A stretch of DNA of 32,099 nt, from IMG/VR virus record IMGVR_UViG_3300006916_000199, positions 1-32,099 of that record; one strand, given 5' to 3'. This DNA comes from a virus. Position numbers and translations under genes: made by a program. Shown piece after piece: positions 129 through 21,046 of this stretch (positions are counted from its first letter, which is position 1; each line of letters opens with the position of its first letter). The notes under the pieces were generated by a model. The model was not told the DNA's origin. It ran no database searches and saw only the letters and a program-made list of their open reading frames with translations.

Positions 129-3100
129 TTACGGTAGTGCTGTCGGAGGTGCGGGAGGAACTGAGGGTCCAAAAGATGGTGGGTTTTCCGTAGTAGGCGG
201 CGAAATGGCTCTATTAAAGTTAGTTGCTTTTATTTCTGGAAATTGATCCTTCTCACTGGCCGTGGACTTTCTCCTCACTAATTGAGTTTTTTTGATAGCC
301 AACTTGGCGTCTGAGTTTTTTGTTCCTGGAGTGACCTTTACATCTTGAATCATCCCGTTGAATATTGTGTTTTTTATAGCCCTAAAATTCTCTAGCCTAG
401 ACAGTCGATTGAACTGGTTAAATGTTAGCCTAGAAAAAACGTCAAACTCTGTAAGAGATTTTCCTATACCGTTTAGACCAAGAAGATAATTTCTGTCTAA
501 CTCAGTAACGATCTCGGCCATCAAGCGGTAACCAGTTTTTGCGCGAGAAGGTGTATACTCCTGTGCCGGAATAACATTTTTATTATTATCCACATATCCA
601 GACTTAATATTGACGTTATCTAAATTAAGTTTACTAATCCTAGCTTGATTTGTTTTGTTACCGTAAACATCTACGGCCCCTATCCCTACAAGCTCAGTGC
701 TTATAAATTGATTATATGTGTTCCTAAATTTAGGAGTTATACTTGTCCTTGTTCTTAGCTGTCTAGTTACACTAGCTTCAACTAAATTAGATGATGGCGT
801 AATATTAACTATTTGAGACTTAGCATTGAATGGATTATTTTCTGGGTTGTTTGTAGGATACAAAAGAATATACCAAGGCACCTGTCGGGTAAGCAGCGGC
901 ATAGTTTTATTTTCTTTTGGAGAATCTACAATGATATCCGTCTGAGATAAAAATAACTTACCATCTCTTTCAACATAATCTAAGATAAGGTCTTCGTCGT
1001 CTAAAATAAATGTTTGATGATTTTCTTTGTATTTTATATACTCATTTATTTCATCTATGTTACTCAGACTCACGTTCTCATATCTAGCAGTAGTGCTTTT
1101 TAGGTGTCTACTGCCTTGTGTATCGGGGGTACTGGTGACAGAGCTTAAAACACAACTTAAAAAGTAAATATCTTGCCTAGGGGAAGATAATGAGTAATCT
1201 AACTCTATACCTTTTGGATCACCGCTTACCGTCAGAGTTCTATTTGGATCCCCACCTAGAATATTAATAGCTATTTGTCTAGTTTTTTCGGGAACTAAAT
1301 AAGCGTGATCTTTTTCTGATTTGGCATACAATCTAGAAACTTCGCCGCCTAAAGTTATATCAAAATATTCACCATCTTTTAAAGCGAGCGTGCTTCTTTC
1401 TATGAATGTTTCGTCGTCGTTGACATAATATCTTTTTACTTCTCCACGAACAGTAACGTCTATGTAACGATCAATGTCACTCGATAAAACCTTCCTATTC
1501 TTCATTGTTTCAGCGGCTCTTCCTGAGTAGGAAGAAGGCTCTAAGGAGTAGAAGTTTCTTTCTACTAAACCTAAAGCCACGGTCTCGTTAACTATTGATG
1601 ATTTACTTCTAGTTATTTCTAAAGATTTTTCTTTAGAGCCAGCTTTCTGTAGTTTTAGCAGTGTTCCCTTATTTACGTTTTTTATTGTGCCGTCTAATAT
1701 ACGACTACCTATCATCCCAAAAATCTGAACTCTGTTGATGGGGGACCTGTCATAATTTAATATCTTGGAAAGTATTTCTTTTGTTTCCTCATTTAGGTTT
1801 GAGTAAACACTTTCCACGGTGATAGTCCCTGCCTTAGAACTGTCCCAATCTCCAAATTTATTCGGGTTTTCTAACATGTAAAGAAGAGTGTCGTCGATAT
1901 ACTCAGAGAAAATATCGGTAACTCTGCTTGTATTTCTAACCTTAACTGGTTTTTCTGGTGTGTCGTTGAAGAATATTTCTTCGTCTTCAAATCCAGACGG
2001 CCTTTCGGATAATATATAATTTGATAAAATTGGATCGGACAAATCTATTTTTTCAGAAGTTTCTACAATCTGTCCTACATTTTTTGGTGATATTTTTTGG
2101 AAGTTGACCGAGAAGTTTGTTGCCCCTCCTATTGATACTATTGGACTAACTCCCGAAGCTTCAGGAACCTCACCTATAAATGTACCTCCAGGGCCGCTGT
2201 CATCGGTAACACCCGTAACGCCACCACCTTCAGGAAGGTTTCCTATCGAGGTAGCATCTACATTTCCACCATTATCTCCAGGAGCACCCGTAACGCCACC
2301 ACCTTCAGGAAGGTTTCCTATAGAAGTAACATCTACATTTCCACCTCTAGGCGTAGCTCCGATGGGATCTTGAGGACTAATCGGCGTGAACGGGGAATCT
2401 CCTGGGCCTCCAGGAGTTGGTTCTCCTACGTTAATCAAATCTCTTGGAACAAATAACGTGCCGATCACAGGATCACAAAGACCATTTCGAGGACAATCCT
2501 CGAAACCTCTTGTCTGAAGTTGGAAATCTTCCGAAGCATTTACATTATCTTGCTCCCACCTATTTAGCCTAGCAATATTCGGGTTTGGTGTTGCCAAGGG
2601 GAACTGTTTGCATTCCTGTGCGAACTCTAATCTGTAAGTGGACCCTAAAGGAGTCTCCGATACTAAAGTTCTTACTGGGGCTTCTCCTGTATATACACAC
2701 TTATTCACCACCCTATTAGGAGTCCCTGGATTTTGAGGAACAGGGTCAGGGTCGTTATAAGGTGGACTGACTTCACCAGCAACAGTATACACTAATGTTA
2801 TAACACCACATTTTCCGTCACATAGAATAGGTGAGTTTGGAGGATTAGTATTGCAGTCGGTGAACCCAGTCCCTAAAGGAAAAGTAAACACACCATTTGG
2901 ATCCGCAAGCTCTACGGTTGTTACAGCAGGATCATTAATCATTGTTCCCTGATTAGGGTTCTGTGTATCGTCAGGTAACCGTTTACAAGTTTGCTCAAAG
3001 ATAAAAGTATAGACTCTACTTCCGTTAGGAAGAGTTTTTACAGGTTGAAGTGAGCCTGTACCAACAATCACACATCGACAAAAACTCCCCGGAACTACAG

Positions 3101-3347
3101 CAGGAGGATCTTCGGGTTCATTAAGTCCAGGAGGAACCACTACTGGGGGCCGCTGACTCGGTGGAGGGGGAGGTCCCCCATCAACAATAGTTGGAGGGCC
3201 AAAGGGATCAGCCTCCGTACTTACTCCAGGAGGATCCGGGTTGGGGGGGTCTGGGTCGTTTACGTTTCCTTCATCAATAAAATCAGGAAAGTTAAACGGC
3301 CCTCTTCCTGGAAGAAACTCCCCACAACCGAAGGTGTTTACGGACAT
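129..3347 (-). CDS. Large proline-rich virion adhesin or fibre-like protein
   Basis: This 1072-residue protein is not recognised by family. Residues 1-88 are a proline/glycine/aspartate-rich linker with runs of PPPPP. Two related cysteine-containing modules follow, at about 89-190 and 215-300; both carry a central hydrophobic strand, a CK-x-x-P element and a paired-cysteine end (CDGKC, CPRNGLC). Then come a Gly-rich stretch with 25-residue repeats (about 335-396), two copies of a short motif, DVTVRGEVKRYYV near 625 and DITLGGEVSRLYA near 663, and a mixed alpha/beta C-terminal half ending in a second proline-rich tail. Position at the distal end of the baseplate block suggests an exposed tail protein, perhaps an adhesin; this is inference. 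The start has no clear ribosome binding site and lies 3 bases after the previous stop, so translational coupling is likely. Confidence 0.8.
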   Translation of the reverse strand: MSVNTFGCGEFLPGRGPFNFPDFIDEGNVNDPDPPNPDPPGVSTEADPFGPPTIVDGGPPPPPSQRPPVVVPPGLNEPEDPPAVVPGSFCRCVIVGTGSLQPVKTLPNGSRVYTFIFEQTCKRLPDDTQNPNQGTMINDPAVTTVELADPNGVFTFPLGTGFTDCNTNPPNSPILCDGKCGVITLVYTVAGEVSPPYNDPDPVPQNPGTPNRVVNKCVYTGEAPVRTLVSETPLGSTYRLEFAQECKQFPLATPNPNIARLNRWEQDNVNASEDFQLQTRGFEDCPRNGLCDPVIGTLFVPRDLINVGEPTPGGPGDSPFTPISPQDPIGATPRGGNVDVTSIGNLPEGGGVTGAPGDNGGNVDATSIGNLPEGGGVTGVTDDSGPGGTFIGEVPEASGVSPIVSIGGATNFSVNFQKISPKNVGQIVETSEKIDLSDPILSNYILSERPSGFEDEEIFFNDTPEKPVKVRNTSRVTDIFSEYIDDTLLYMLENPNKFGDWDSSKAGTITVESVYSNLNEETKEILSKILNYDRSPINRVQIFGMIGSRILDGTIKNVNKGTLLKLQKAGSKEKSLEITRSKSSIVNETVALGLVERNFYSLEPSSYSGRAAETMKNRKVLSSDIDRYIDVTVRGEVKRYYVNDDETFIERSTLALKDGEYFDITLGGEVSRLYAKSEKDHAYLVPEKTRQIAINILGGDPNRTLTVSGDPKGIELDYSLSSPRQDIYFLSCVLSSVTSTPDTQGSRHLKSTTARYENVSLSNIDEINEYIKYKENHQTFILDDEDLILDYVERDGKLFLSQTDIIVDSPKENKTMPLLTRQVPWYILLYPTNNPENNPFNAKSQIVNITPSSNLVEASVTRQLRTRTSITPKFRNTYNQFISTELVGIGAVDVYGNKTNQARISKLNLDNVNIKSGYVDNNKNVIPAQEYTPSRAKTGYRLMAEIVTELDRNYLLGLNGIGKSLTEFDVFSRLTFNQFNRLSRLENFRAIKNTIFNGMIQDVKVTPGTKNSDAKLAIKKTQLVRRKSTASEKDQFPEIKATNFNRAISPPTTENPPSFGPSVPPAPPTALP
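2211..2345 (-). repeat. Tandem 75-bp period repeat encoding a 25-residue Gly-rich unit
   Basis: Two 60-base blocks, 2211-2270 and 2286-2345, match at 57 of 60 positions and are spaced exactly 75 bases apart, so the reading frame is kept. They encode GGNVDVTSIGNLPEGGGVTG and its near copy, separated by a short acidic linker. A third, degenerate unit (TFIGEVPEASGVS) follows in the protein, corresponding to about 2155-2195. Near-identity at the DNA level points to recent duplication or gene conversion inside a probable surface-exposed linker. Confidence 0.85.
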
Positions 3348-3350
3348 TTT

Positions 3351-5987
3351 TTAGTTTTGATTAAGTTGGATTACAGGATCAGTCGAGTTTAGGTTTCCGT
3401 AAAAATACGGCTGGCCGTCACCACTAATGGCATTAAGCTTCCACGTTATAGTTGGATATGTGCATTTTCCTACTCTAGGGTTACCTATATAACCCTCATA
3501 AGCATTTTCTTGTTCAGCTAAAGGTGGATCAGGCTGATTTTGAGCAAAGGGGTTTGTGTTAGCAGTTAGAATATCATCCGTTAAAGCCAGGAACCCACTA
3601 AATCTTTCTCCACCTCTTTCACTAACTGTAACTCGCTCTCTTCCAGGTAGTTGATACGTATGCGGTGCTGGAACTAATGCAGAAGTAAACGTCTGTCCGT
3701 TTAGTGGGTAAGTAGACATAAGAGTATCGTGCGTAGTGAAAGCTACATAAATAATGAAATAGTCTTTACCTTTTTCTACCCAGTTTCCGATGTATCTAGC
3801 GGCTTCATCTGGGTTATTTTCAGCAGCAGAAAAAGAGGGCACCCCTTTCGCCCCAGAAATCTGAGGTATACAATTCATAAACTCCACATCTACGGAGTAA
3901 TCAACCATGTTCGGATACTGGCCTCTGTCAAAGTTTATTTTCTTTTTAATGTAGCTGAAGTTAACTCTAGGGGTGTTTAATCGGTCAGGAAGCGGGCCAG
4001 GAGAGGTGGTGTTTGAGAACATTACGCACCTGTTCGGAGTAGGTCGCCCAGGCTGACCAGTCGTGCCATTGGGTGCAACATACTCTCTATAGGACCCTGC
4101 TACAATTCCAGCATCGGGGCGACCCTCCAAGAAGTTAAAGTTCCCACTGTTGGGTAGCTCCTGATAAATCCCTTGTTCGTTGTGGAAAACATTAATATAA
4201 TCATTAGGGTATCTTCCAGCCTCAGTTACATTTGAGTTGAGTAGAGCCCACTCTGCTAAGTCCCAATCAGGATATGCCGGAATCTCAAAATTTACTGTAT
4301 CAAAACCGTATTTTTCTGTAATTGTAGCTTTTATCGCTTGCTCGGTATCATTATTTGGGTTCGGGTCTCCAGCAAAAACTTTGCTATAATGATCATAAAG
4401 TGCGCCTTCAGGACCAAAGTTGTAGCCTCCAAACACATAACCAGCAGCAACAGTTTGAATTCCTCCCCTAAGACCTCCGTTTATACCTCCACTTTCTAGT
4501 GCAATAATTCTACCGTTTACTTCGTTATACTGTTCTCTTAGCTCGTAATCCAGTTGAGCTTTTCCCACTGCTGGGTTAGCTAAAGAAAGCTGGGGTAGAG
4601 CAGCGGCGATTCCAGCACGCTCATTATAAGAAAGTTCAGCAGTTCTAAATAGTGGGCGGATATCTATAACGTCTGTGGGTGCAACAACTGTAGATCCAGC
4701 CGTGACCCAAATATACGCTACAGGCAAGATCGACTGCCCCACAAGCTCGAATGCTTCATTTTCTAATTGATTAGAAAGTAAGGGAGCTATGTTAAGAAGA
4801 TCATCGGGTGAGGGAAAACTTCCTCGAACATCAAACGCAACGTCCCCCTCACCTGAGCGGAAACCTATATTTTCATTTTGAGCATCTCCTGGAGATGCTA
4901 GAATTTTATGATCATCTCCAGTGCTTTGTATGTAATCCTGGCGGTAATCGGAAGTCTCTTGGAAGTTAGCTTTTATACCCGCCCCTCTAACAATACCCAG
5001 AGTGGGTGAGGTAATAGTTTCTTTTCCTGAGCCTTTGAGGATGGTCGTAGAACTAACATCAACTGGCTTGCTGTAAATAAACACCATGTCTACTCTGCTA
5101 ACTACACCAGGAACAGGTACTTCAACACCATTCTCATCAATGTAATTAAAGTCGGATGGGTCAAAGCTAGGGACTTCTATGGATATCTCTTCGGGAAGGT
5201 CTACAATAGCCGTTCTAGCTATTCCTCGCCAAGCTCTAACAAAGAAGCTCTCTGTTTTTGGCATTAAAGCAAAACCATTAATAGGGTCGCTAAAATCATA
5301 GGTAGTAAGCAGAAATCGGTCAGCCGCAGAATTAACAGACTTTGCCCAAACATAAGCCTCAGTAATAATCATAGGAACTAACTCTGAAGCTCGTCCTGTT
5401 CCTGGGCTTTCATAACCCAAAGCACCGGAATCAAACTGAGTTGACACGACAACACCCGTGCTATTAACTGGTCTATCTGGTTTAACCATAGGCCAAGTAA
5501 ATGATCTTTCTCCCAAACCATTCATTCCTAGAGAACGCTCTGCTACATTAGTTTTAAATGAAGTTAGAGCATCCTCCAATAAAGCATTAACCGCTGATTC
5601 TGTAGGCGTAGACATTGTGCCTGGATTAGGCAACGCAGCCTCATAAGTATCAAACTCACCCACACCTAAACCCAAAACTTGATTAAGGTAAGCCAAGGGT
5701 CGTTTTGTTGAAGCGTCATTTACCCTAGCCGTGTACCGCCCAGGCTTTACTCTTACAACTCTATCTTCACCACTTGAGTAGGGCCTAAGCTCATCAATAT
5801 CAAATCTCTTAACGCCACTGATTGATATAACTTCTCTTCTGATCTGATCCTTCAGCCACAAAATATTTTCTTGTAACTGTTTGAGAGGTATGTTATCTAC
5901 TTCAAAATAATACGGGTCGTTAGACTTGAATAGTCTGACGGGATCTGTAAATTTATAAACACTTTCGTTGAATTGTTGTTCGGCCAT
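3351..5987 (-). CDS. Baseplate or tail fibre structural protein with DNIPL N-terminal motif
   Basis: This 878-residue protein begins with a short region containing PYYFEVDNIPLKQLQENILW (about residues 26-45), a pattern also seen near the N-terminus of the next upstream protein (FYNWEQDNVPLYDLEE). A shared N-terminal motif followed by unrelated bodies suggests a common docking element onto the baseplate. The middle holds DVIDIRPLFRTAELSYNER (about 440), a motif type I associate with large phage baseplate proteins, then a Gly-rich segment. The C-terminal third is rich in beta-type sequence. A good ribosome binding site (GAGGG, 8 bases before ATG) supports the start. No enzymatic motif was seen. 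The role as a peripheral wedge or fibre component is inferred from position and composition. Confidence 0.8.
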   Translation of the reverse strand: MAEQQFNESVYKFTDPVRLFKSNDPYYFEVDNIPLKQLQENILWLKDQIRREVISISGVKRFDIDELRPYSSGEDRVVRVKPGRYTARVNDASTKRPLAYLNQVLGLGVGEFDTYEAALPNPGTMSTPTESAVNALLEDALTSFKTNVAERSLGMNGLGERSFTWPMVKPDRPVNSTGVVVSTQFDSGALGYESPGTGRASELVPMIITEAYVWAKSVNSAADRFLLTTYDFSDPINGFALMPKTESFFVRAWRGIARTAIVDLPEEISIEVPSFDPSDFNYIDENGVEVPVPGVVSRVDMVFIYSKPVDVSSTTILKGSGKETITSPTLGIVRGAGIKANFQETSDYRQDYIQSTGDDHKILASPGDAQNENIGFRSGEGDVAFDVRGSFPSPDDLLNIAPLLSNQLENEAFELVGQSILPVAYIWVTAGSTVVAPTDVIDIRPLFRTAELSYNERAGIAAALPQLSLANPAVGKAQLDYELREQYNEVNGRIIALESGGINGGLRGGIQTVAAGYVFGGYNFGPEGALYDHYSKVFAGDPNPNNDTEQAIKATITEKYGFDTVNFEIPAYPDWDLAEWALLNSNVTEAGRYPNDYINVFHNEQGIYQELPNSGNFNFLEGRPDAGIVAGSYREYVAPNGTTGQPGRPTPNRCVMFSNTTSPGPLPDRLNTPRVNFSYIKKKINFDRGQYPNMVDYSVDVEFMNCIPQISGAKGVPSFSAAENNPDEAARYIGNWVEKGKDYFIIYVAFTTHDTLMSTYPLNGQTFTSALVPAPHTYQLPGRERVTVSERGGERFSGFLALTDDILTANTNPFAQNQPDPPLAEQENAYEGYIGNPRVGKCTYPTITWKLNAISGDGQPYFYGNLNSTDPVIQLNQN

Positions 5988-8900
5988 TAGTTATCCCTCT
6001 CTAAATCAAAGATAGAAGCTGATTTAAATCCTTGGATGAAATCTCCTGAATAAGATTCTCCATTTCTTTGATTTCTTTCACTGTATATAGTTGTTTTTCT
6101 TGGTCTTCCAGCAAGACCCACACTTGCATTTCTAGCGTTTGCAAACATATCTGCTGCGGATTCTTCCAACGTACATTGCGTTGGGTTTTCTTCTAGAATT
6201 TCTGAACAGTAATAAAAGCCTGAAGTCCATAACTGATCATATACACCATCACCGTCACTATCGTAACTTAGTTTTAATAGGTCTGGGGCCACGGCACTGG
6301 CATTTTGATAGCCAGTAGGAACAATGGCAGATAGAGGCCCAGAACAGTTATATCCTTGTGCAAAGATCTGGTACGCTGGGCCTACCACCCCGGAGAAGTC
6401 TGTGCTAGAAGTAGCATCACTCTGAAGAAGTCTTGCACTTGATTTCGGAGACCAGTAAAGCCTGAAGGACCCTCTATTATTAAACGCCCCTGATACTCCG
6501 AAATCGTAAGCTCTAGTGCCGCTAACATTAATTCCAGCTTGAGAAAGAGACCTTGCTGTAGAATCATTTACCTCACCGGATACAGGATAAAATCTCTCAA
6601 ACTCCGAGTTTACATCGACACCAGAAGGAACAATCCAAACAGAACTTCCCGCACCGAAGGCATCTAAGATACTAAGCGATCCTGTGTCTGGAGTGCCTAA
6701 GGGAGCACCAGAGGCAAATACGGTGTCGTTAGACGACATATAGATGGCACTAGGTCCATGCTGTTCAGAACTAATAGGATGAGTACCACTTAGTGATACA
6801 AAAGAAGCCTTTAGTCTAGAACTATCAGCTATGTTCCAAATATTGAACTTATTACATTCGTCTCCTGCGGAGTCGAAAAAGAGGCCGTCCGCTGGGCTAG
6901 CATTTGGAGGAACAGGGAAGTGAACATTGTTTACATTTACCACACTATCTTCTACCGCCCTAAGACACACACCCCCAAGAGAAATAGTTTGCCTTAAAGG
7001 ATAGTCTGGCGCAGAGAAACCCCCATCCTTTATTAGTAAGAGATTAGTTCTATCTAAGCTTTTTGGGGTTAATGGAAGCGCATAAGAGCCTATTGATGCA
7101 GGTGCTGCGGTGACTTGTGGGTTAGCAAAAAACTGCATGGATCCTGCTGAAAGCACATTGCTAAAGAGTGTGGTATAATCAGATTGTGTAATTTGTCCAA
7201 GAATGTCTGCTCCACTGGCTGTCGTACTCCAGTTAGTAGGATAACTACCCAAATCTTTGATGTTTATCGTACTGTTTTTCTGTGCTACTAAACAAGATCT
7301 AGTTGAGTGAAGCTCTACGCTAGTATGGTTTTCCCTAGAACTGAGATCGAAAGAATCTACATCAGGGGAATCTCCCCCCTTAATTCTTCTAGGCTCAAAG
7401 TTCATAATTGAATTGTCTTTAGCTAAAACATCTACTGCAAATTGAGCTATGGCCGTTGGACCATGAAAGCTAACAGAAGAATTTTTCTCCGCACAAACTC
7501 CTGCCATGTTTTTTTGAGTTGAATAAGTTCCAGGACCAACAATCAAAGTGGCTCCATTTCCCGCACCATTGAGTGTAGCGGTTGAACCGTTTATTGTTTT
7601 AATCGCTCTACCGTAGCTAACTGTTGGATTATTTGTAGTATCAGTTACTTCAATGTAGGGCTTTAGTAGATCCAGGTTAGAATTGTTGCTTATTTTTATG
7701 GCTGGCCCTGGGCCAAAGGATTGACGGAAGAAAGAGTTGCCATAAGAACTAGGAACTAAGTTTTTTAATTTGAAATCAAACGTGCTACCTCCATCTAGGT
7801 CTAGGTGAACAGAGTTTGCAGAAAGGTCTAACTGTCTTCTAACTACAGTCTCCTGAATCTCGTCTGAGTCGTAATGGAAAGTAGACTTGTGACTAGCTAT
7901 ACCTTCATTTTGGTTACCGTCTACAGTTAAATTTTCAAACTTTAGGATTGAGTTATTCGACCTTATCCCAACACTATTGCCATAAACATCGACTAAACCC
8001 TTTAAATCAACACGAGAATTATTTAAAAGTATTCCAGCACTAGTATTTAACTCAGAGCAAAGAACTCCACCGCTCTTTGCGTCGGCTGCTTCTGACCGTT
8101 TGACCCCTCCTCTCATAGTTGAATTCTCTAAAACGAATCCTCTTGTGTTTCTAGAAGCTATAACAGTTGCGTCCCTTCCCTCGGCTCCGAAATCGCCTAC
8201 AGATGACAAGGCGGAAACGCCTAAAGAACTTACTAAAACGTCACTGTTAACTAAGCGGAATCCAGTTCCTAGCTCTGGCTCTCTTTGTGTAACATCATTC
8301 TCATCTATTTTGTAATTTCTATATGCAAATGCCGACCTGGAAAGTGTTACTTCAGAGTTGACAAATTTGAATCCAGACTCCTGTGCTCTCATCACAGAAC
8401 AGTTTTCAAGTAATACTTTGGAGTTGTTAACTTCGATGCCTACTGGACGTACCGTTCCTCCGTCAACAAAGAAGTTTCTTATGTAAATAGGTCCGTCACA
8501 GTTCTTTACACTTATTTTTGTGCAAGTGTTTCCATAAATATTACCGCCTATCTCTGTGCCTGTAGTGACTTGGCTTCTTCGTAAGTAATTTGAACCAATA
8601 TTAGCAGAACTAATATCAAAGCTTGAAATAGTTAGGTCTGTGCTCTGATTCTCAAATACGTTAGGTGCAAATTCATTTTGTGTAGAGGTTATGAAGTTAC
8701 CGTCCTCAAGGGTTACAGCTAAAGCTGTTTTTCTTGTGTCGTGTGAGGGAAAAAATACAGAATTAACTTGAGTAAGTCTTGTGTCTGCTCCACCGTTAAC
8801 GAATACGTTAGATCCTATATGAACGCACTCAGTATCATTTATTGTGTTACTTAGATCTAGGGAACTAATTTGTGTAGGCAATACTAAGTAGGAACCGAGG

Positions 8901-9367
8901 GACGGAACCGCCGCCGTTCGAACATCTGAAGAGGCATTATATGTTCTAGCAAAACACCTGTTTATAATTTCTATTGACCCTTCTTCCTCTATTCTAAAAT
9001 TGTGTAGCTCTAAAGGCCCAATATCAGTATAGTTTCCAACTTCAACTAAGACAGGAAAACGAACTACTTTAGGTATCGCTGCGATGGCAGAACTTAGGTC
9101 AGAGAATAGGTTTGAATCAGCCTCAAACGACTCAGGAGAAGCGTCAGAGGAAACCGTCAGTGCTAGCCCTGGGACGCCCGCCGAAGTAGCATAACCTCCT
9201 TGCTCCCAGAGTTCGTAAGTTCTTTCCTCTAGATCGTAAAGGGGAACATTGTCTTGCTCCCAATTGTAGAAAGTGCTAGTGTCAAACTTGGAGACATAAG
9301 GTGTCCAAGAATTGAACAGCATAACGCTACCGCTGCTCGTGTAAATGTCATTTGGGTTGAATGCCAT
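5987..9367 (-). CDS. Beta-helix tail fibre or tailspike-like protein
   Basis: This 1126-residue protein carries the N-terminal motif FYNWEQDNVPLYDLEE (about residues 33-48), related to that of the 878-residue neighbour. From about residue 110 to 750 the sequence is a succession of short strands with repeated Asn/Ser-containing turns (for example GIEVNNSKVLLENCSVM, GFRLVNSDVLVSS, GIRSNNSILKFENLTVDGN), typical of a right-handed parallel beta-helix as in pectate-lyase-like tailspikes. A calcium-loop-type sequence, DSDGDGVYD, lies near residue 1036. I see no clear catalytic pair, so depolymerase activity cannot be claimed. Likely a trimeric host-contact fibre or spike; the fold assignment is from repeat pattern, the role from position. 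The start lies one base after the previous stop without a strong ribosome binding site. Confidence 0.82.
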   Translation of the reverse strand: MAFNPNDIYTSSGSVMLFNSWTPYVSKFDTSTFYNWEQDNVPLYDLEERTYELWEQGGYATSAGVPGLALTVSSDASPESFEADSNLFSDLSSAIAAIPKVVRFPVLVEVGNYTDIGPLELHNFRIEEEGSIEIINRCFARTYNASSDVRTAAVPSLGSYLVLPTQISSLDLSNTINDTECVHIGSNVFVNGGADTRLTQVNSVFFPSHDTRKTALAVTLEDGNFITSTQNEFAPNVFENQSTDLTISSFDISSANIGSNYLRRSQVTTGTEIGGNIYGNTCTKISVKNCDGPIYIRNFFVDGGTVRPVGIEVNNSKVLLENCSVMRAQESGFKFVNSEVTLSRSAFAYRNYKIDENDVTQREPELGTGFRLVNSDVLVSSLGVSALSSVGDFGAEGRDATVIASRNTRGFVLENSTMRGGVKRSEAADAKSGGVLCSELNTSAGILLNNSRVDLKGLVDVYGNSVGIRSNNSILKFENLTVDGNQNEGIASHKSTFHYDSDEIQETVVRRQLDLSANSVHLDLDGGSTFDFKLKNLVPSSYGNSFFRQSFGPGPAIKISNNSNLDLLKPYIEVTDTTNNPTVSYGRAIKTINGSTATLNGAGNGATLIVGPGTYSTQKNMAGVCAEKNSSVSFHGPTAIAQFAVDVLAKDNSIMNFEPRRIKGGDSPDVDSFDLSSRENHTSVELHSTRSCLVAQKNSTINIKDLGSYPTNWSTTASGADILGQITQSDYTTLFSNVLSAGSMQFFANPQVTAAPASIGSYALPLTPKSLDRTNLLLIKDGGFSAPDYPLRQTISLGGVCLRAVEDSVVNVNNVHFPVPPNASPADGLFFDSAGDECNKFNIWNIADSSRLKASFVSLSGTHPISSEQHGPSAIYMSSNDTVFASGAPLGTPDTGSLSILDAFGAGSSVWIVPSGVDVNSEFERFYPVSGEVNDSTARSLSQAGINVSGTRAYDFGVSGAFNNRGSFRLYWSPKSSARLLQSDATSSTDFSGVVGPAYQIFAQGYNCSGPLSAIVPTGYQNASAVAPDLLKLSYDSDGDGVYDQLWTSGFYYCSEILEENPTQCTLEESAADMFANARNASVGLAGRPRKTTIYSERNQRNGESYSGDFIQGFKSASIFDLERDN

Positions 9368-17000: not shown

Positions 17001-18993
17001 TCCATAAGCTGAGTATATTTTTTTCATAATCCGATACACTAAATATTACGTCATCGTAATTAGGCGGATGCTGAGGGGAATCGAAGAACATTAAAAATTC
17101 ATTTAATGACCCTATCGTTGTGGAGTCTGTCACAGCGTTATCAGAGATGTATTTACCTACTTGATTTGCAAATGTATTATCTACTCCAAAGCATTTGAGC
17201 CTATCAACAAGTAAATCTACCATAGGTTGAGTAACTGAGGAATCCCTAAAATATTTAACTTCTTCGAAAGGGGGAAGCGGGTAGTTTACTTTTTCTCTGT
17301 AATTAAATAAAAACTCAGGATCTCCTTCAAAAAGGAGATAGACATCATCAACCTGCGGATCTGTATTGTGCGTTCTACCTGCCATGTAGACACCTTCACC
17401 GAATGGTCCTGGTCCAACCGCCCTCTCCCAAAGTTCTAGCTCTCCTTTCTCATAAGCCCTACGCCTAAGAACTTCATAACCTCCACCATCTACAAGATGA
17501 CAGTGCCAGGGCTTCATTGCGGGATCACCTAAAACTGTGTATAGTTCGCCTTTTGTGCCATCACGGTTTAAGTAATAAAATCTAGGGAAAGGCATCTTCT
17601 TCCCAAATGATCTAAAATCATCAGGGAAAGCTGATGCGAGGTCAAAAAGAATTGAGTCTGTTACAAGCTTTAAATTTTCCTCAAGACTACTTGTGTTGTA
17701 ATAAAGCACTCCACTTTCTTTTGCTTTTTCTTGAGTCCACGTTTTTAAATTTTTAAAGTAGGGTGACGCCGTGCCTAAGGAATACCAAATTAAGTGTGGT
17801 ATATAACTTTCCCAAAGCGGTATGATATTACCGTCTATGGATAAAACGCTGTTAACCACCAAAGCATTTAGAGCACGCCTAAGCGATTCTTCTGTCCCGG
17901 TAGATTTATAGATGTCTGCCGCTGTTCTAAGTTGATGCCGCCATTTCCCTGAGTTATTTCCTCTTAAAGTAAAACCTATAAGGTCTGCAATGTACTTTAA
18001 GTTTTCCTTATCGGTATTTTCTATATCATACAAATACCTAATTTTCTCTACTTCATCAGAGACATCAGCAAAGTTAAAGCCTAAAGCTGTTAAGAATTTT
18101 CTAAAAGGTCCTTTGGATACTGTATCTTGTAGCCTTATTTTAGCATCAATATAATTTTTAAAAGCCGTATCTACTCTGAAGTCTTGATTATCAATTTGCA
18201 GAGGAGAATATACAACATCTACTAGTGTTTTTAACTTATCTAAATTCTGAGTTCCACTAGTGTATGTGTCCGTATCAGACGCAGGAGGCAAAAAGGCTTT
18301 TGGGATGTATTCTCCAAAAGAACAAGCTTCTAGATTTTTCCAAACAAACTCAGTTAATCCTTTTATTCCATCTACTGTGTAGAATTCTTTACCTATGAAT
18401 ACTTTACTCAGATTTTCTAAAACAAAAGAAGACGGGCTGTAACTCAATCCTCCGAGAGCAGAGGTATTTAAGAAATAAAACCAACCTAAACTATCTACTA
18501 AATAATTATTAATACTACTTGCAGTAGCTTCCTTGCTTAAGGCAGAAAGTTCGGAAATGTTATTCTCTATGGTGCCTTGAGTATTTGCCCCAGGAGGAAT
18601 AATTTTTGGAAGCAAATTAGATGATAGATAGTTTTCAAAGTCTCCGCTAGTAGTAAAGTCCGAATAAGAAAAACCTAGAGGAAATAAGATTTGATCAAAA
18701 AAAGTTTCAGGAGTAATATTAGTTAAGTTATTTTGCTTTACAAAAAAAGAACATATTCCTGATAAGGTATTAATATCTAAAGGTGTAGTAGCCGATAAGG
18801 ATAAAACGCTGTCTATATTATCGGCTATAGATAAATGGCTGTTTATTAGTTCACTTATGGGATTAACTTGAAGACCACTAAGTGAAATGTCATCTTCTAC
18901 ATAGAGTTTAGGCGTGATTAACTCCAGAAGATCTGCAAAGTTAGACTTACTATAATTTCTCGGGTCTGGGCTATATGTATTATTTTGTAACAT
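11026..18993 (-). CDS. Giant baseplate wedge protein (gp7/P2 gpI-like) fused to beta-helix and FN3 domains
   Basis: At 2655 residues this is the largest protein here, more than twice T4 gp7 (1032 residues). About residues 310-390 resemble the P2 gpI tail family: IRYLYDIENTDKENLKYIAD followed by TAADIYKSTGTEESLRRAL, the family's helical pattern of a residence segment then a KGT-like turn. Its place directly after the gp6-like gene fits the gp6/gp7 wedge heterotrimer. Downstream are a beta-rich region, a pectate-lyase-like beta-helix stretch (about 1225-1460, with HIKKEHCAYVATNGDTVFEG and similar turns), a proline/glycine linker (about 1560-1610), four fibronectin type III-like domains (about 1610-2012) and a 640-residue C-terminal region with RRNFRYLLPEFGYYDRTGFN at its start. 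The start codon overlaps the previous stop (TAATG) and has no ribosome binding site. The wedge assignment is fairly secure; the role of the appended domains in host binding is inference. Confidence 0.82.
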   Translation of the reverse strand: MLQNNTYSPDPRNYSKSNFADLLELITPKLYVEDDISLSGLQVNPISELINSHLSIADNIDSVLSLSATTPLDINTLSGICSFFVKQNNLTNITPETFFDQILFPLGFSYSDFTTSGDFENYLSSNLLPKIIPPGANTQGTIENNISELSALSKEATASSINNYLVDSLGWFYFLNTSALGGLSYSPSSFVLENLSKVFIGKEFYTVDGIKGLTEFVWKNLEACSFGEYIPKAFLPPASDTDTYTSGTQNLDKLKTLVDVVYSPLQIDNQDFRVDTAFKNYIDAKIRLQDTVSKGPFRKFLTALGFNFADVSDEVEKIRYLYDIENTDKENLKYIADLIGFTLRGNNSGKWRHQLRTAADIYKSTGTEESLRRALNALVVNSVLSIDGNIIPLWESYIPHLIWYSLGTASPYFKNLKTWTQEKAKESGVLYYNTSSLEENLKLVTDSILFDLASAFPDDFRSFGKKMPFPRFYYLNRDGTKGELYTVLGDPAMKPWHCHLVDGGGYEVLRRRAYEKGELELWERAVGPGPFGEGVYMAGRTHNTDPQVDDVYLLFEGDPEFLFNYREKVNYPLPPFEEVKYFRDSSVTQPMVDLLVDRLKCFGVDNTFANQVGKYISDNAVTDSTTIGSLNEFLMFFDSPQHPPNYDDVIFSVSDYEKNILSLWNGKSSHIYIDFDSSSFDFRKSNLEADSKYALYETARIAQEYTPAHTIPRVNLNASAEDDYLASSVEFLYAALDHDDTRALYGSGTLLGNTAISGVIFEGDRTEKGFQTFQRDDVRGMDTELNSVYNNFNPPPIAPSFTARYIVAHELSSNTIEETKQIAQVKRDQRLQRPYEHIGSFNLSRSTSGAGFISQAWMLGPPSDDPAYVDPSTGSYPPFYRFRSSTAGNVNSNWQSDSGDPFPPTPAALGMSVSANGQFGGVGADLQLENIRMSPSPVNWFYDSRQYWTKTATGYGGMSSIGNLRNDTVTFPPYNNENNQVIYGDQRFKGNDTKHFVLRNFSGEMIVGLAKESEYDPAVLFSNPVTETSGFYFGAKLDSAGKVTEIITDGDGLSSFSFTTGDGFNIPCNGIRFGVYKGNKAPYVLTSQDNGANWKLCAFGDRGVDRANVPEDNPVEFYRLLVKNLDSTGATITAVADPYHIEYGGISTGSQWTSNLFGLNLNDPITGFGNPYRHYLRPGNYIWRNVDVNGRNPNERISPWTPIEPFVVNPDMKWGTREFSLSSRSFFDCDWSHIKKEHCAYVATNGDTVFEGCTASSIGSQGFQISYRSSPYGTYSKGDNNAFASRPQHLIRDCHMVDCGFEGDRPAFTWTYFTPGNSTYPATITIQDSTIAERYERPIDDSSGDTIGGRSRKTFVATKAQGTSVDIFNVPDSEVANAGLLPIPGAYKDQFVRVTNTSSTYRWDEDTAAWVNLGDITGNLMEKVIFQNTAIHTVKQGSSGHMSIRGSDEINFEHCAFIYDPEDPNWNNQDYKISIDGEQFEDGVGPLNVSPSGASDDACMQSRYLTLKNNIAVLPPDCPDARVIFRVFRTTDRNTSNASNDPVFTFELDATNNLNRVITWDLSSLVPGGGGAQTPTVVEDRPYDVLIDGPYPTAASGSAGVTSPPPITDPPGKIQNPYPADNSVGVALNAQCAWAPTLNATGYDVYFGEGSLPGTPSLEDTTNAFFDPTIAIPAGLSYNTEYYWRVDTKNVIGTTTGDTLTFTTESAPPPAPGQATNFTPANGATGVSITQSCSWDAATNASAYDVYFGTAPTPPSVSVNQTSTSFDPGLLSYDTTYYWRIDPVGEGGTTTGATISFTTESDPGVPGSAPDEVTVGFPSNVEIDINPVALVWEAPGNDPSGYDVFFGHTPGSLTQISTDQTSTRIDSSSLSAATTYYWDVTAKNSVGQTPMTSEFSFSTIGLPGEVSAGTPNQITVAPINAVLSWQGVSAADTYKVYLAESVSELFIEPVTEVTGLSVFLGNLKSLTQYYWSVEAVNAFGSTYMSGGTSQGGEEGENSILEEGTGYFSFLTSEVPPSEIIRNDLRRRNFRYLLPEFGYYDRTGFNGPITYDPSVLEMSLASSLGELTLGYVASAGKFFPVEDHTNISGVWDPCEDLDSPNAFFGVNSSSTFPYRGFNSMMSSMERYADRGQTPEIITAMHSLFENKAKTFAQVNIDASPSSFAIDSYWKDQVQSYANSAIASGYVVNSYSDYENFSFGRDMQKVFKNYSVDFYRHNLGPNMREKTGANIFSHVFGKGLFNCDFDIAGENVGSFISTSLRDYSPINKTSVWLQDAPGTFVASSLDEAVVPLIGTYTSGESFDFRNGTILSGIEFCDISGAPERNEFQVIHLDPSTQVKGLQNYFVDNPIIKCKSVGGLPRLRFDLSSYGDKPNKLISEHQFKLSLKALVANETKPEFGGGQVGIWIHTEPEQGLIWSWTADGKWTPTRAEDLSIDQVTKKLSNVYSFGLRQPDDDRQYCLASLDSSGSINNKTLSNLRSEFFEEFSVEFDTRNFSIYNNLEYKKIIDKTDEQYKLTDQVHTDRNYIVEVFFIPNNDYQKFLLIDSIGLQDTTLRYQAALPTGLGIPTKGIPLRPFVKEYRYELNKEELAKTLKFYNGLIGQRAGENTTPLASRDPNITQPIMGPFGGSRINYRLNPEWVDHTDGLNGNYTEVEFDN
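12955..14165 (-). repeat. Four tandem FN3-type domain repeats inside the giant wedge gene
   Basis: Boundaries are approximate. Each unit is about 100 codons and has the FN3 pattern of a Trp strand (CAWAP, CSWDA, LVWEA, LSWQG), a [YK]-V-[YF]-[FL] strand (YDVYFG, YDVYFG, YDVFFG, YKVYLA), and a Y-Y-W strand (TEYYWRVD, TTYYWRID, TTYYWDVT, TQYYWSVE). The first two units share a 17-base identical run (13748-13764 and 14051-14067, 303 bases or exactly 101 codons apart), so this pair diverged more recently than the others. Such Ig/FN3 arrays are frequent on phage tails and are thought to bind carbohydrates weakly; that role is not shown here. Confidence 0.85.
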
Positions 18994-20588
18994 TACGCTA
19001 AGTATTCTACATTAATAGTTAGGTTATTTAATTGAATGATCTCATTAAAATCCACTTTAACGTCCTGGCCTAAATTGTCTAGTGTAGAAAATCTAACATC
19101 ATCTACTTCAAAAATTTGACGATTAAGATCAGATATCCTCAAACCCTCACCAAATTCCATATTATCGACACTTAGATAGTTTAGTATCTTATCTCTAACT
19201 CTAGTTTTTATGGATTCCTCGTTTTGTTTTTGCTCTAAGTCTACTTGAACTGTACACACAAGATCCAAAGTTCTTATGAGCCCATCAACAATAACAACAT
19301 CATCTGTTATCATTTTCTTTTTGCTGATAGCGTCTAGTAGCTGAGTTTTAAAATTACTCGTAGCTCTTTGTAATTGGAAATCACCTGCCTTTTCTAAAAC
19401 ATAAATATCAATAGTGTTTGCTGAGGAATACGCATTTCGTGTGGCTGCTGTGGCTTTACCTATAGTTCCAAACGTGCTTATAAATGTGTTTGCAAAGGAA
19501 GAATAATCAGTTAAAGTAACTAGCCTGTCTTGTCTCCTAAACGTCAGAGGAGCGTACTTTTTAGCCTTTTCAATAGTTTCCGCATTAGCCCCTCCTGTTG
19601 CTTTAGATGTGTTCGTGGCCGTTCCAGTATAGGTGTTAGAACCACTTGTAGCCGTCACAGTGGATGTTAGTCCTCTCTTCTCTATGTTGCCTCTAGTGCC
19701 CCCCCCAACTCGATAAGATAGCGTGTACGAGGCATTAGAAGGAGGGGAGATCCCCGCTACTCCTGTGCCAAAAACCAAAGTTGCATTGTAACTATCATCG
19801 TACACCACTTCGAATATTTTATCGTTTGATCCTGAAGCAAAGTATATGCTGTCCACCTCAAGGTAGGCACCCGAAGATTTTTCTTCGTTAGAAGTTACGA
19901 AAATTTCTATACTCCCTTCTACTACAGGACCATCAGCGAGAGCAATGGTTTTTTGATCCTGTGTAGGAGAGAAGTCCCCAGTCTGAACAACCAAGGCTCC
20001 TTCTTGAATAACTAGATTATCAAAAACATTTTGATTGTCTCCTTTACCCTCTGATACAGGAGACAAAAGTATTGAAGCATTTCTAGTAGCCTCATCGACA
20101 AGTCCGTTCACAACTTTGTATAAAGTGTAAGTAACTTGAGCGCCGTCCTCTGGCGACAAAATGCTTATTACCCTTTGCGAAGGAGCAATTGATATTTCGT
20201 TTATTCCAGATAAATCATCATCAAAAGTTAACTCTAGGTCAGCAGCAGCAGAAAGAGGACCTCTCATCCTAACTCCAATTAACTGCAAAAGTTTCTTTAC
20301 ACTTTGCCTTTGCCTTGCGGTGGCAATGTAGTTTTCATTAGCTAGCATGTCAGCTTTCATAGACATTACCGCCCCCATATAAGCCGCTAACTCAATGAAC
20401 ATCATACCTAAATCAGATTCCACAAAATAATTATAATCTTCAGGGAAAGCAGCTTTAACATAATCTATCAAAGAATCCCTAAGGGTAAGGAAATCCGTCG
20501 CAGCGAAGTTTATTAAATCTGCCTTGCGGTCTAGCGCAAGGGGAGCCAACTTCATAAAATCCGAAGAAACTGTCCCAGAAAAATTCAT
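18993..20588 (-). CDS. Baseplate wedge protein, gp6/baseplate J-like
   Basis: This 531-residue protein has the N-terminal signature of the gp6/gpJ baseplate family: a helical segment FLTLRDSLIDYVKAAFPEDY, then SDLGMMFIELAAYMGAVMSM and ADMLANENYIATARQRQSVK, in which the planar wedge subunit packs early in the chain. The middle is beta-rich with a YTLSYRVGGGTRGNIEKRG turn typical of the family, and the C-terminal part contains a helix-strand repeat. In T4 two gp6 copies and one gp7 form the wedge that closes into the baseplate ring. It is shorter than T4 gp6 (660 residues). It lies directly between the gp25-like and gp7-like genes, as in many contractile-tail phages, with an ATGA overlap upstream and a GAGG site 10 bases before ATG. 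Confidence 0.9.
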   Translation of the reverse strand: MNFSGTVSSDFMKLAPLALDRKADLINFAATDFLTLRDSLIDYVKAAFPEDYNYFVESDLGMMFIELAAYMGAVMSMKADMLANENYIATARQRQSVKKLLQLIGVRMRGPLSAAADLELTFDDDLSGINEISIAPSQRVISILSPEDGAQVTYTLYKVVNGLVDEATRNASILLSPVSEGKGDNQNVFDNLVIQEGALVVQTGDFSPTQDQKTIALADGPVVEGSIEIFVTSNEEKSSGAYLEVDSIYFASGSNDKIFEVVYDDSYNATLVFGTGVAGISPPSNASYTLSYRVGGGTRGNIEKRGLTSTVTATSGSNTYTGTATNTSKATGGANAETIEKAKKYAPLTFRRQDRLVTLTDYSSFANTFISTFGTIGKATAATRNAYSSANTIDIYVLEKAGDFQLQRATSNFKTQLLDAISKKKMITDDVVIVDGLIRTLDLVCTVQVDLEQKQNEESIKTRVRDKILNYLSVDNMEFGEGLRISDLNRQIFEVDDVRFSTLDNLGQDVKVDFNEIIQLNNLTINVEYLA

Positions 20589-21046
20589 TGTATTTTTGCC
20601 TCAACATCAAAAACTTCTAGGCTATCACTATCCAGACTTACAGATAGTATTACCCTTAATTGATTGCCACCCGCAGCATCGTATTCCCCAGTTTCAAAAA
20701 TACTTACTTTTCGTAAAGTAGCTCCCTCAATATAATCGTTAAAAGATCTAACTATAGTTTGCTTTATATCAGCAAAAAGGTCTTCCGTGATAGGCTGAAA
20801 TAAGTATTTTCTTAGCGTGCATCCAAAATTTGGAAGCATTATTCTCTCACCCTTTTCTGTTCTCAAAAGCTGCTGGATAGCTTGCTTAATCATTGGTCTT
20901 CCAGAATTACTTTTAAAAAAACCTCCTGATTCTTTTCTAATACCTAAAGGATGATTTAAGCCACGGACCTCCCGCTTCTTTTCTCTAGGAGATTGTAGCT
21001 CATACCTAGTAGGTGATTGACCGAATCTGGATATCGTATTACTCAT
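20585..21046 (-). CDS. Baseplate wedge protein, gp25-like
   Basis: This 153-residue protein contains the gp25/gpW baseplate core at about residues 50-150. The signature is ERIMLPNFGCTLRKYLFQP, matching the family pattern E-x-R-x-x-x-P-x-F-G-[CS]-x-L-x-x-[YL]-x-F, where T4 gp25 has an EPR motif; here it reads GERIMLP. A helix and a beta-sheet with ATLRKVSIFETGEY follow. A basic N-terminal extension of about 50 residues precedes the core. In T4, gp25 joins the sheath start to the wedge and nucleates sheath assembly. The ATG overlaps the preceding stop (TAATG) with no visible ribosome binding site, and its stop overlaps the gp6-like start. Confidence 0.92.
   Translation of the reverse strand: MSNTISRFGQSPTRYELQSPREKKREVRGLNHPLGIRKESGGFFKSNSGRPMIKQAIQQLLRTEKGERIMLPNFGCTLRKYLFQPITEDLFADIKQTIVRSFNDYIEGATLRKVSIFETGEYDAAGGNQLRVILSVSLDSDSLEVFDVEAKIQ

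Follow-up and report, generated by a model that had tools for sequence, protein, structure and literature searches.

A conserved N-terminal element on two otherwise unrelated proteins of an uncultured phage

Why should two adjacent phage genes encode large proteins that resemble each other only at their very beginning? The question is raised by the single virus record IMGVR_UViG_3300006916_000199, a stretch of 32,099 bases to which we refer as the window. Two proteins from its baseplate operon, P0001 and P0002, had been predicted from the letters of the DNA to share an aromatic-rich DN[IV]PLxxL motif within their first 50 residues on unrelated bodies, and the motif had been interpreted as a common baseplate attachment element. 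Here, we describe a longer N-terminal element around this motif, which recurs on eleven further body types outside the phage group. We consider it likely, at odds of roughly two to one, that the element is a virion-anchor arm by which fibre-like proteins dock to the tail. The features in question, with lengths in amino acids (aa), are:

3351..5987, minus strand: P0001, 878 aa, the shared element followed by a body without an assigned fold
5987..9367, minus strand: P0002, 1126 aa, the shared element followed by a right-handed beta-helix, tailspike-like body
5826..5951, minus strand: N-terminal element of P0001, residues 13-54 (FTDPVRLFKSNDPYYFEVDNIPLKQLQENILWLKDQIRREVI), matched by hhalign to P0002 and to the DNRPL family described below
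9182..9307, minus strand: N-terminal element of P0002, residues 21-62 (WTPYVSKFDTSTFYNWEQDNVPLYDLEERTYELWEQGGYATS), matched by hhalign, more weakly to the DNRPL family

An N-terminal element common to two bodies

The motif was located at residue 31 of P0001, whose N-terminus reads FKSNDPYYFEVDNIPLKQL, and at residue 39 of P0002, which starts with FYNWEQDNVPLYDL. The similarity proved longer than the motif originally predicted, running without gaps over 42 residues (P0001 13-54, P0002 21-62). When 110-residue stretches of the two family profiles were compared, the pairing of N-terminus with N-terminus ranked first among 285 pairs with a score of 31.2, the runner-up reaching 17.5, and hhalign aligned the two elements over 42 ungapped columns (89.6%, E = 1.9e-6). 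The bodies did not align, all other stretch pairs scoring ≤17.5, and the N-termini were also the sole alignment in a full-length profile comparison, at low probability (4.8%, E = 0.0083). The bodies are thus as unrelated as had been proposed.

A motif core this short could arise by convergence or chance, but the controls already contradict this. When the N-terminal 60 residues of 16 window proteins were shuffled in 5000 trials, one protein with DN[IV]PLxxL was obtained in a single trial and two proteins in none. The window and 108 loci gave 1015 distinct open reading frames (ORFs; 490,910 aa), and all 63 occurrences of DN[IV]PLxxL in them lay within the first 60 residues of the P0001 and P0002 families (48 and 15, respectively). 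The looser form DNxP[LIVMF]xx[LIVM] occurred ten further times inside other ORFs and once deeper in a P0001 relative, never within their first 60 residues. Given this exclusive N-terminal position, the shuffles and the 285-pair control, a fortuitous origin is scarcely credible; at the level of sequence, the likeness of the two copies exceeds chance.

Relatives of both proteins retain the element. DNxPxxx[LIVM] was present near the N-terminus of 66 of 69 distinct P0001 relatives and 78 of 81 distinct P0002 relatives, and the six without it are fragments that start inside the body, so that every relative with an N-terminus carries it (66/66 and 78/78). The core of the pattern originally put forward is indeed confined to the two families, but the pattern was too narrow, since 41 of the 78 P0002 relatives read DNLPLYDL. 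P0001 and its relatives outside the group approximately follow [FY]-x4-[DS]-x-Y-x-[YFW]-x-x-D-N-x-P-[LI]-x-x-[LI], of which P0002 has a variant form. With conservation measured as the mean frequency of the majority residue (43 P0001 and 41 P0002 sequences), residues 26-50 ranked first among the 25-residue blocks of P0002 (0.93) and second among those of P0001 (0.87).

In AlphaFold2 monomer models, the predicted local distance difference test score (pLDDT) fell below 50 at residues 15-33 of P0001 and 12-64 of P0002, and a helix was predicted right after DNxPL (residues 35-50 and 46-56, respectively). We saw no sign that the element belongs to the fold of either body, its pLDDT being <50 over most of its length. 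Conservation combined with the lack of a confident fold of its own fits what would be expected of an interface arm.

The model of P0002 (pLDDT 76.1, predicted template modelling score (pTM) 0.78) and the structure search agreed on a right-handed parallel beta-helix from about residue 58. Its best solved match was 8egr_A from the upper tail of Staphylococcus phage Andhra (Z 23.2, root-mean-square deviation (rmsd) 4.4, 472 residues aligned), followed by tailspikes and alginate enzymes (7chu_A, Z 21.3; 6w4q, Z 21.1); Foldseek returned eight matches at E ≤ 0.001, phage depolymerases and tailspikes included. The model of P0001 was weak (pLDDT 68.2, pTM 0.46), and its structure search gave no match at E 0.001, with a top Z of 3.5. 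An alignment of P0001 residues 3-56 to a baseplate chain of the Anabaena contractile system (Z 2.5, rmsd 7.2) was judged to be noise. Pfam, searched at E ≤ 1, returned nothing for P0001, and its one family for P0002 was unrelated and sub-threshold.

Adjacent genes with an ungapped similarity could also be ancient duplicates, the bodies having diverged past recognition and the element being an ancestral remnant. However, P0002 is modelled as a beta-helix and P0001, at low model confidence, is not, and the element also sits on the eleven other body types, which are unalignable at a phmmer E-value of 1e-3. We therefore regard this origin as very unlikely.

Within the phage group, 54 distinct contigs carried both genes, which were on one strand in all 54 and adjacent in 53, with a relative of the baseplate-operon protein P0006 ≤4 kb upstream of them in 45 of 50. 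A profile of the element (A1) was run on 33 of the longer viral records; 31 of them held two copies, and the remaining two, in which the contig stops at that point, held one. In G021, an additional weak match over 15 positions (E = 0.017) was judged to be chance. Within the group, the element was always found on the same two bodies, which indicates that bodies are not swapped here, and with two carriers per genome it reveals no further attached proteins. The expectation attached to the original prediction, that the element helps to recognize other attached proteins of this group, was therefore not borne out, nor was an exchange of bodies on it.

The element outside the window group

Profile A1 also had one match in Salmonella phage Arash (gp199, 310 aa, annotated as 'structural protein', E = 1.2e-10) and one in Vibrio phage D69 (a 306-aa protein, E = 1.0e-7), both with the motif DPYYxxVDNRPL. 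A DNA pattern for D-x-Y-x4-DNRPL-x-D matched 59 stretches in viral contigs, of which 54 lead to an ORF with a start, two are real but cut at the end of the locus and three appear by eye to be chance. The same pattern minus one codon matched 2 stretches and no ORF carrying the pattern, a further argument against chance, and an earlier DNA pattern shortened in this way gave 1 stretch without an N-terminal element. In all 44 distinct ORFs, the DNRPL variant (DxYx4DNRPLxD) lay at residue 11-29. By their bodies, these ORFs form nine sets that show no alignment with each other or with P0001 or P0002, and carriers read later added two more, for a total of eleven, one of them a collagen-repeat fibre; the phmmer threshold of 1e-3 that separates these sets leaves room for remote kinship between them. 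The element of P0001 aligned well with the DNRPL variant (hhalign, 98.7%, E = 3.9e-16).

With a pattern for the DNIP form, we obtained 64 stretches and 61 distinct ORFs, every one of which has the motif at residue 20-48. These were 59 P0001 relatives, one 75-residue fragment and one 141-aa protein. The two forms meet on one body type, which carries DNRPL in one phage (134 aa; contig L171, with an identical sequence in L217) and DNIPL in another (141 aa). Several carriers can occur together: among 23 records examined with profile A5, chosen for having a match and some of them for having two, eight held two copies and one held three. One such second copy lies at the N-terminus of a 1604-aa protein that contains 12 collagen-repeat stretches and whose C-terminus is of the fibritin type. 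At the other end of the size range, L171 (5118-6664) and L217 (7488-9035) encode proteins of 98-161 aa made of the element and one short extra part, near fibre-type, head-type and endolysin genes.

Profile A5 run on 296 bacterial genomes of one phylum found only the known phage contig in G035. The element was also not found in the sampled stretches of four phages with a J/gp6 relative, namely an uncultured 595-kb phage, Streptomyces phage LuckySocke, Synechococcus phage S-SRM01 and Streptococcus phage GXN1. A weak tblastn match in Bacillus phage BCASJ1c (E = 0.9) spanned the element. Other weak tblastn matches were taken as chance: inside a DUF4815 protein and far from its N-terminus (Microcoleus phage My-WqHQDG), among small hypothetical genes (Vibrio phage PG11), in a 121-aa hypothetical protein (Bacillus phage 136) and at residue 345 of a fibre protein that lacks the motif (Rhizobium phage RHph_TM3_3_14B), as were two of five Klebsiella phage matches at E 1, which run antisense to an annotated gene.

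Operon context of the carriers

In the window, P0002 and P0001 belong to a contractile-tail baseplate operon on the minus strand, in the order P0012, P0015, P0011, P0007, P0006, P0005, P0004, P0002, P0001, P0003. The neighbouring genes are:

129..3347, minus strand: P0003, Pro/Gly-rich, the gene after P0001
9369..9992, minus strand: P0004, small conserved protein, the gene upstream of P0002
9971..11026, minus strand: P0005, conserved, the gene between P0006 and P0004
11026..18993, minus strand: P0006, 2655 aa, fn3 repeats and a weak Tail_P2_I match (Pfam)
18993..20588, minus strand: P0007, gp6/J-type baseplate wedge protein (PHROGs; tblastn)
20585..21046, minus strand: P0011, baseplate wedge protein (PHROGs)

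P0015, P0011 and P0007 all have baseplate wedge matches in PHROGs, P0007 additionally matches annotated J/gp6 proteins by tblastn, and P0012 has a weak tape-measure match; P0011 and P0015 are presumably of the gp25 and gp53 type, respectively. The Tail_P2_I match of P0006 (E = 0.016) falls short of the Pfam cut-off, and its fn3 matches lie at about residues 1820-1890. Among 93 ORFs related to P0006 and uncut by a locus edge, one has 2661 aa and the rest ≤1755 aa, as against 2655 aa in the window.

A comparable arrangement was seen in another lineage, represented by the contigs L213-L215. Here, two carriers (402-422 and 832-865 aa) share one operon that resembles that of the window, followed by one small gene and then a 1173-1215-aa protein, whose L214 copy matches Tail_P2_I above the Pfam cut-off (E = 2.4e-8).

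The element could instead be an assembly signal, used for trimer nucleation or as a chaperone grip during folding rather than for holding the mature fibre, and an N-terminal position on many bodies together with a conserved short helix would fit this as well. No family described as a chaperone in PHROGs was found among the 16 window proteins scanned, a set that leaves out shorter ORFs, and docking better fits the position in front of a tailspike body and the occurrence in Tail_P2_I operons. On balance, an assembly role appears unlikely.

In both relatives tested, genes for a head maturation protease and a major head protein follow, and the lineage of the window is probably T4-like. No record in the phage collection matched P0001 or P0002 at E 1e-5. 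The pair is also carried by a 130.6-kb contig (L119, QCKN01000003.1) of the Prochlorococcus single-cell genome AG-409-P03, which provides a lead to the host of this uncultured group; another relative of the window phage sits in an Altibacter bin. By eye, the C-termini of P0004 and P0005 are alike (RWTINF / KWRLRFL) and perhaps represent a common C-terminal element, and RWEQDNV at about residue 260 of P0003 resembles the P0002 element.

A probable docking arm and its relation to known anchors

A conserved stretch without a confident fold, placed on unrelated fibre-like bodies and encoded in tail operons, argues for a docking arm. P0001 and P0002 would then each have, within their first 60 or so residues, a homologous copy of one virion-anchor element, made up of an aromatic-rich extended stretch and, after it, a short helix. 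The arm would lie outside the folded body and become ordered upon binding a tail site common to both carriers, most likely on a wedge or Tail_P2_I-type protein from the same operon, with P0002 presenting a beta-helix tailspike-like body and P0001 a different one. P0006 and P0007 are the first candidate docking partners, and P0006 may contain the socket. What we observed of the attachment role proposed originally is one N-terminal element, the unrelated bodies behind it, its place in a baseplate operon and its recurrence on eleven further body types; the docking itself is the probable part.

Several observations weigh against this interpretation. The element helix of P0001 reaches a pLDDT of only about 54-66, and low pLDDT may stem partly from scant alignment variation at the element; this score is also the one measure that suggests detachment of the arm from the body. 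The element of P0002 matches the outside family weakly (hhalign, 75%, E = 2.4e-5), its full-length profile did not match the Arash/D69 pair (0.2%, E = 0.28), and the profile E-values given here apply to single pairs of hand-cut stretches. No PDB chain matched profile A1 in a sequence search at E ≤ 10. In L213-L215, the Tail_P2_I gene follows the carriers and is therefore on the other side than in the window. Finally, the expectation that all hits would lie near baseplate genes did not hold in Arash and D69, where the carrier gene adjoins a helicase gene rather than annotated baseplate genes.

The two latter carriers are annotated merely as structural or hypothetical, and that of Arash lies 1.7 kb before the portal gene. 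Together with the two small L171 carriers, whose neighbours include genes that match head proteins, endolysins and tail fibres, they would suit a general virion element that fixes fibres or decorations at the head, neck or tail and not at the baseplate specifically. Against this stand the baseplate-type operons that hold the carriers in the window group and in the three contigs of the second lineage, and we consider such a general role quite unlikely.

N-terminal anchors common to different fibres are an established idea. PMC12923769 describes eBAP1-5 of extracellular contractile systems as N-terminal baseplate anchors on varied fibre bodies, with the fibre genes coming after the Tail_P2_I, J and gp25 genes, and eBAP1 and eBAP2 as bundled helical domains. 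The element of P0001 and P0002 is likewise conserved, N-terminal and attached to divergent bodies, all of them presumed fibres, and the two genes likewise lie downstream of Tail_P2_I (sub-cut-off), J and gp25 in the window and its relatives. This gene order differs in Arash and D69 and, with Tail_P2_I after the carriers, in the second lineage; by description, the helical bundles of eBAP1 and eBAP2 also contrast with a stretch of about 40 residues here. Similarly, PMC9965104 reports that the tailspikes TSP1-4 of Ackermannviridae have divergent bodies and conserved N-termini, the latter serving in attachment to the baseplate and in assembly of the complex. Like P0001 and P0002, these are several carriers per phage with conserved N-termini and differing bodies, but their N-terminal regions are much longer, with joins given there at residues 149-479, and the sequence search of the PDB gave no match to the element. 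Phage beta-helix tailspikes such as Andhra 8egr_A and CBA120 TSP2 (6w4q) share the fold of the P0002 body after residue 58, whereas no match to the element was obtained for their N-terminal regions. Large size and a gene position downstream of a J-like gene are also found for DUF4815 (PF16075) phage tail proteins, in Microcoleus phage My-WqHQDG, but P0001 and P0002 do not match the DUF4815 model.

A description of this element was not found in Pfam, the PDB or the literature. No Pfam match, judged by the best stretch per match, covered it in P0001, P0002, Arash gp199, the D69 protein or six further carriers. PHROGs had none over it in the carriers tested, except for a weak match of the 98-aa L217 carrier to phrog_21909 (unknown function; residues 31-96), which touches the end of the element. 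We found no phage paper on DNRPL or DNIPL in a search largely outside subscription journals, and none on phage Arash.

More tentatively, unrelated large phages may have a conserved socket on their tails, with the element as its widespread and so far unnamed plug; we hold this idea to be possible rather than probable. If it is true, the many bodies would have been acquired by fusion to one standard connector, and the only tail gene shared by all carriers could point to the socket protein. Many fibre-like genes of uncultured phages have no family match, and a signature of the attachment end would allow candidate host-contact proteins to be listed in such phages. It also leads to a testable prediction, namely one common binding partner across unrelated phages.

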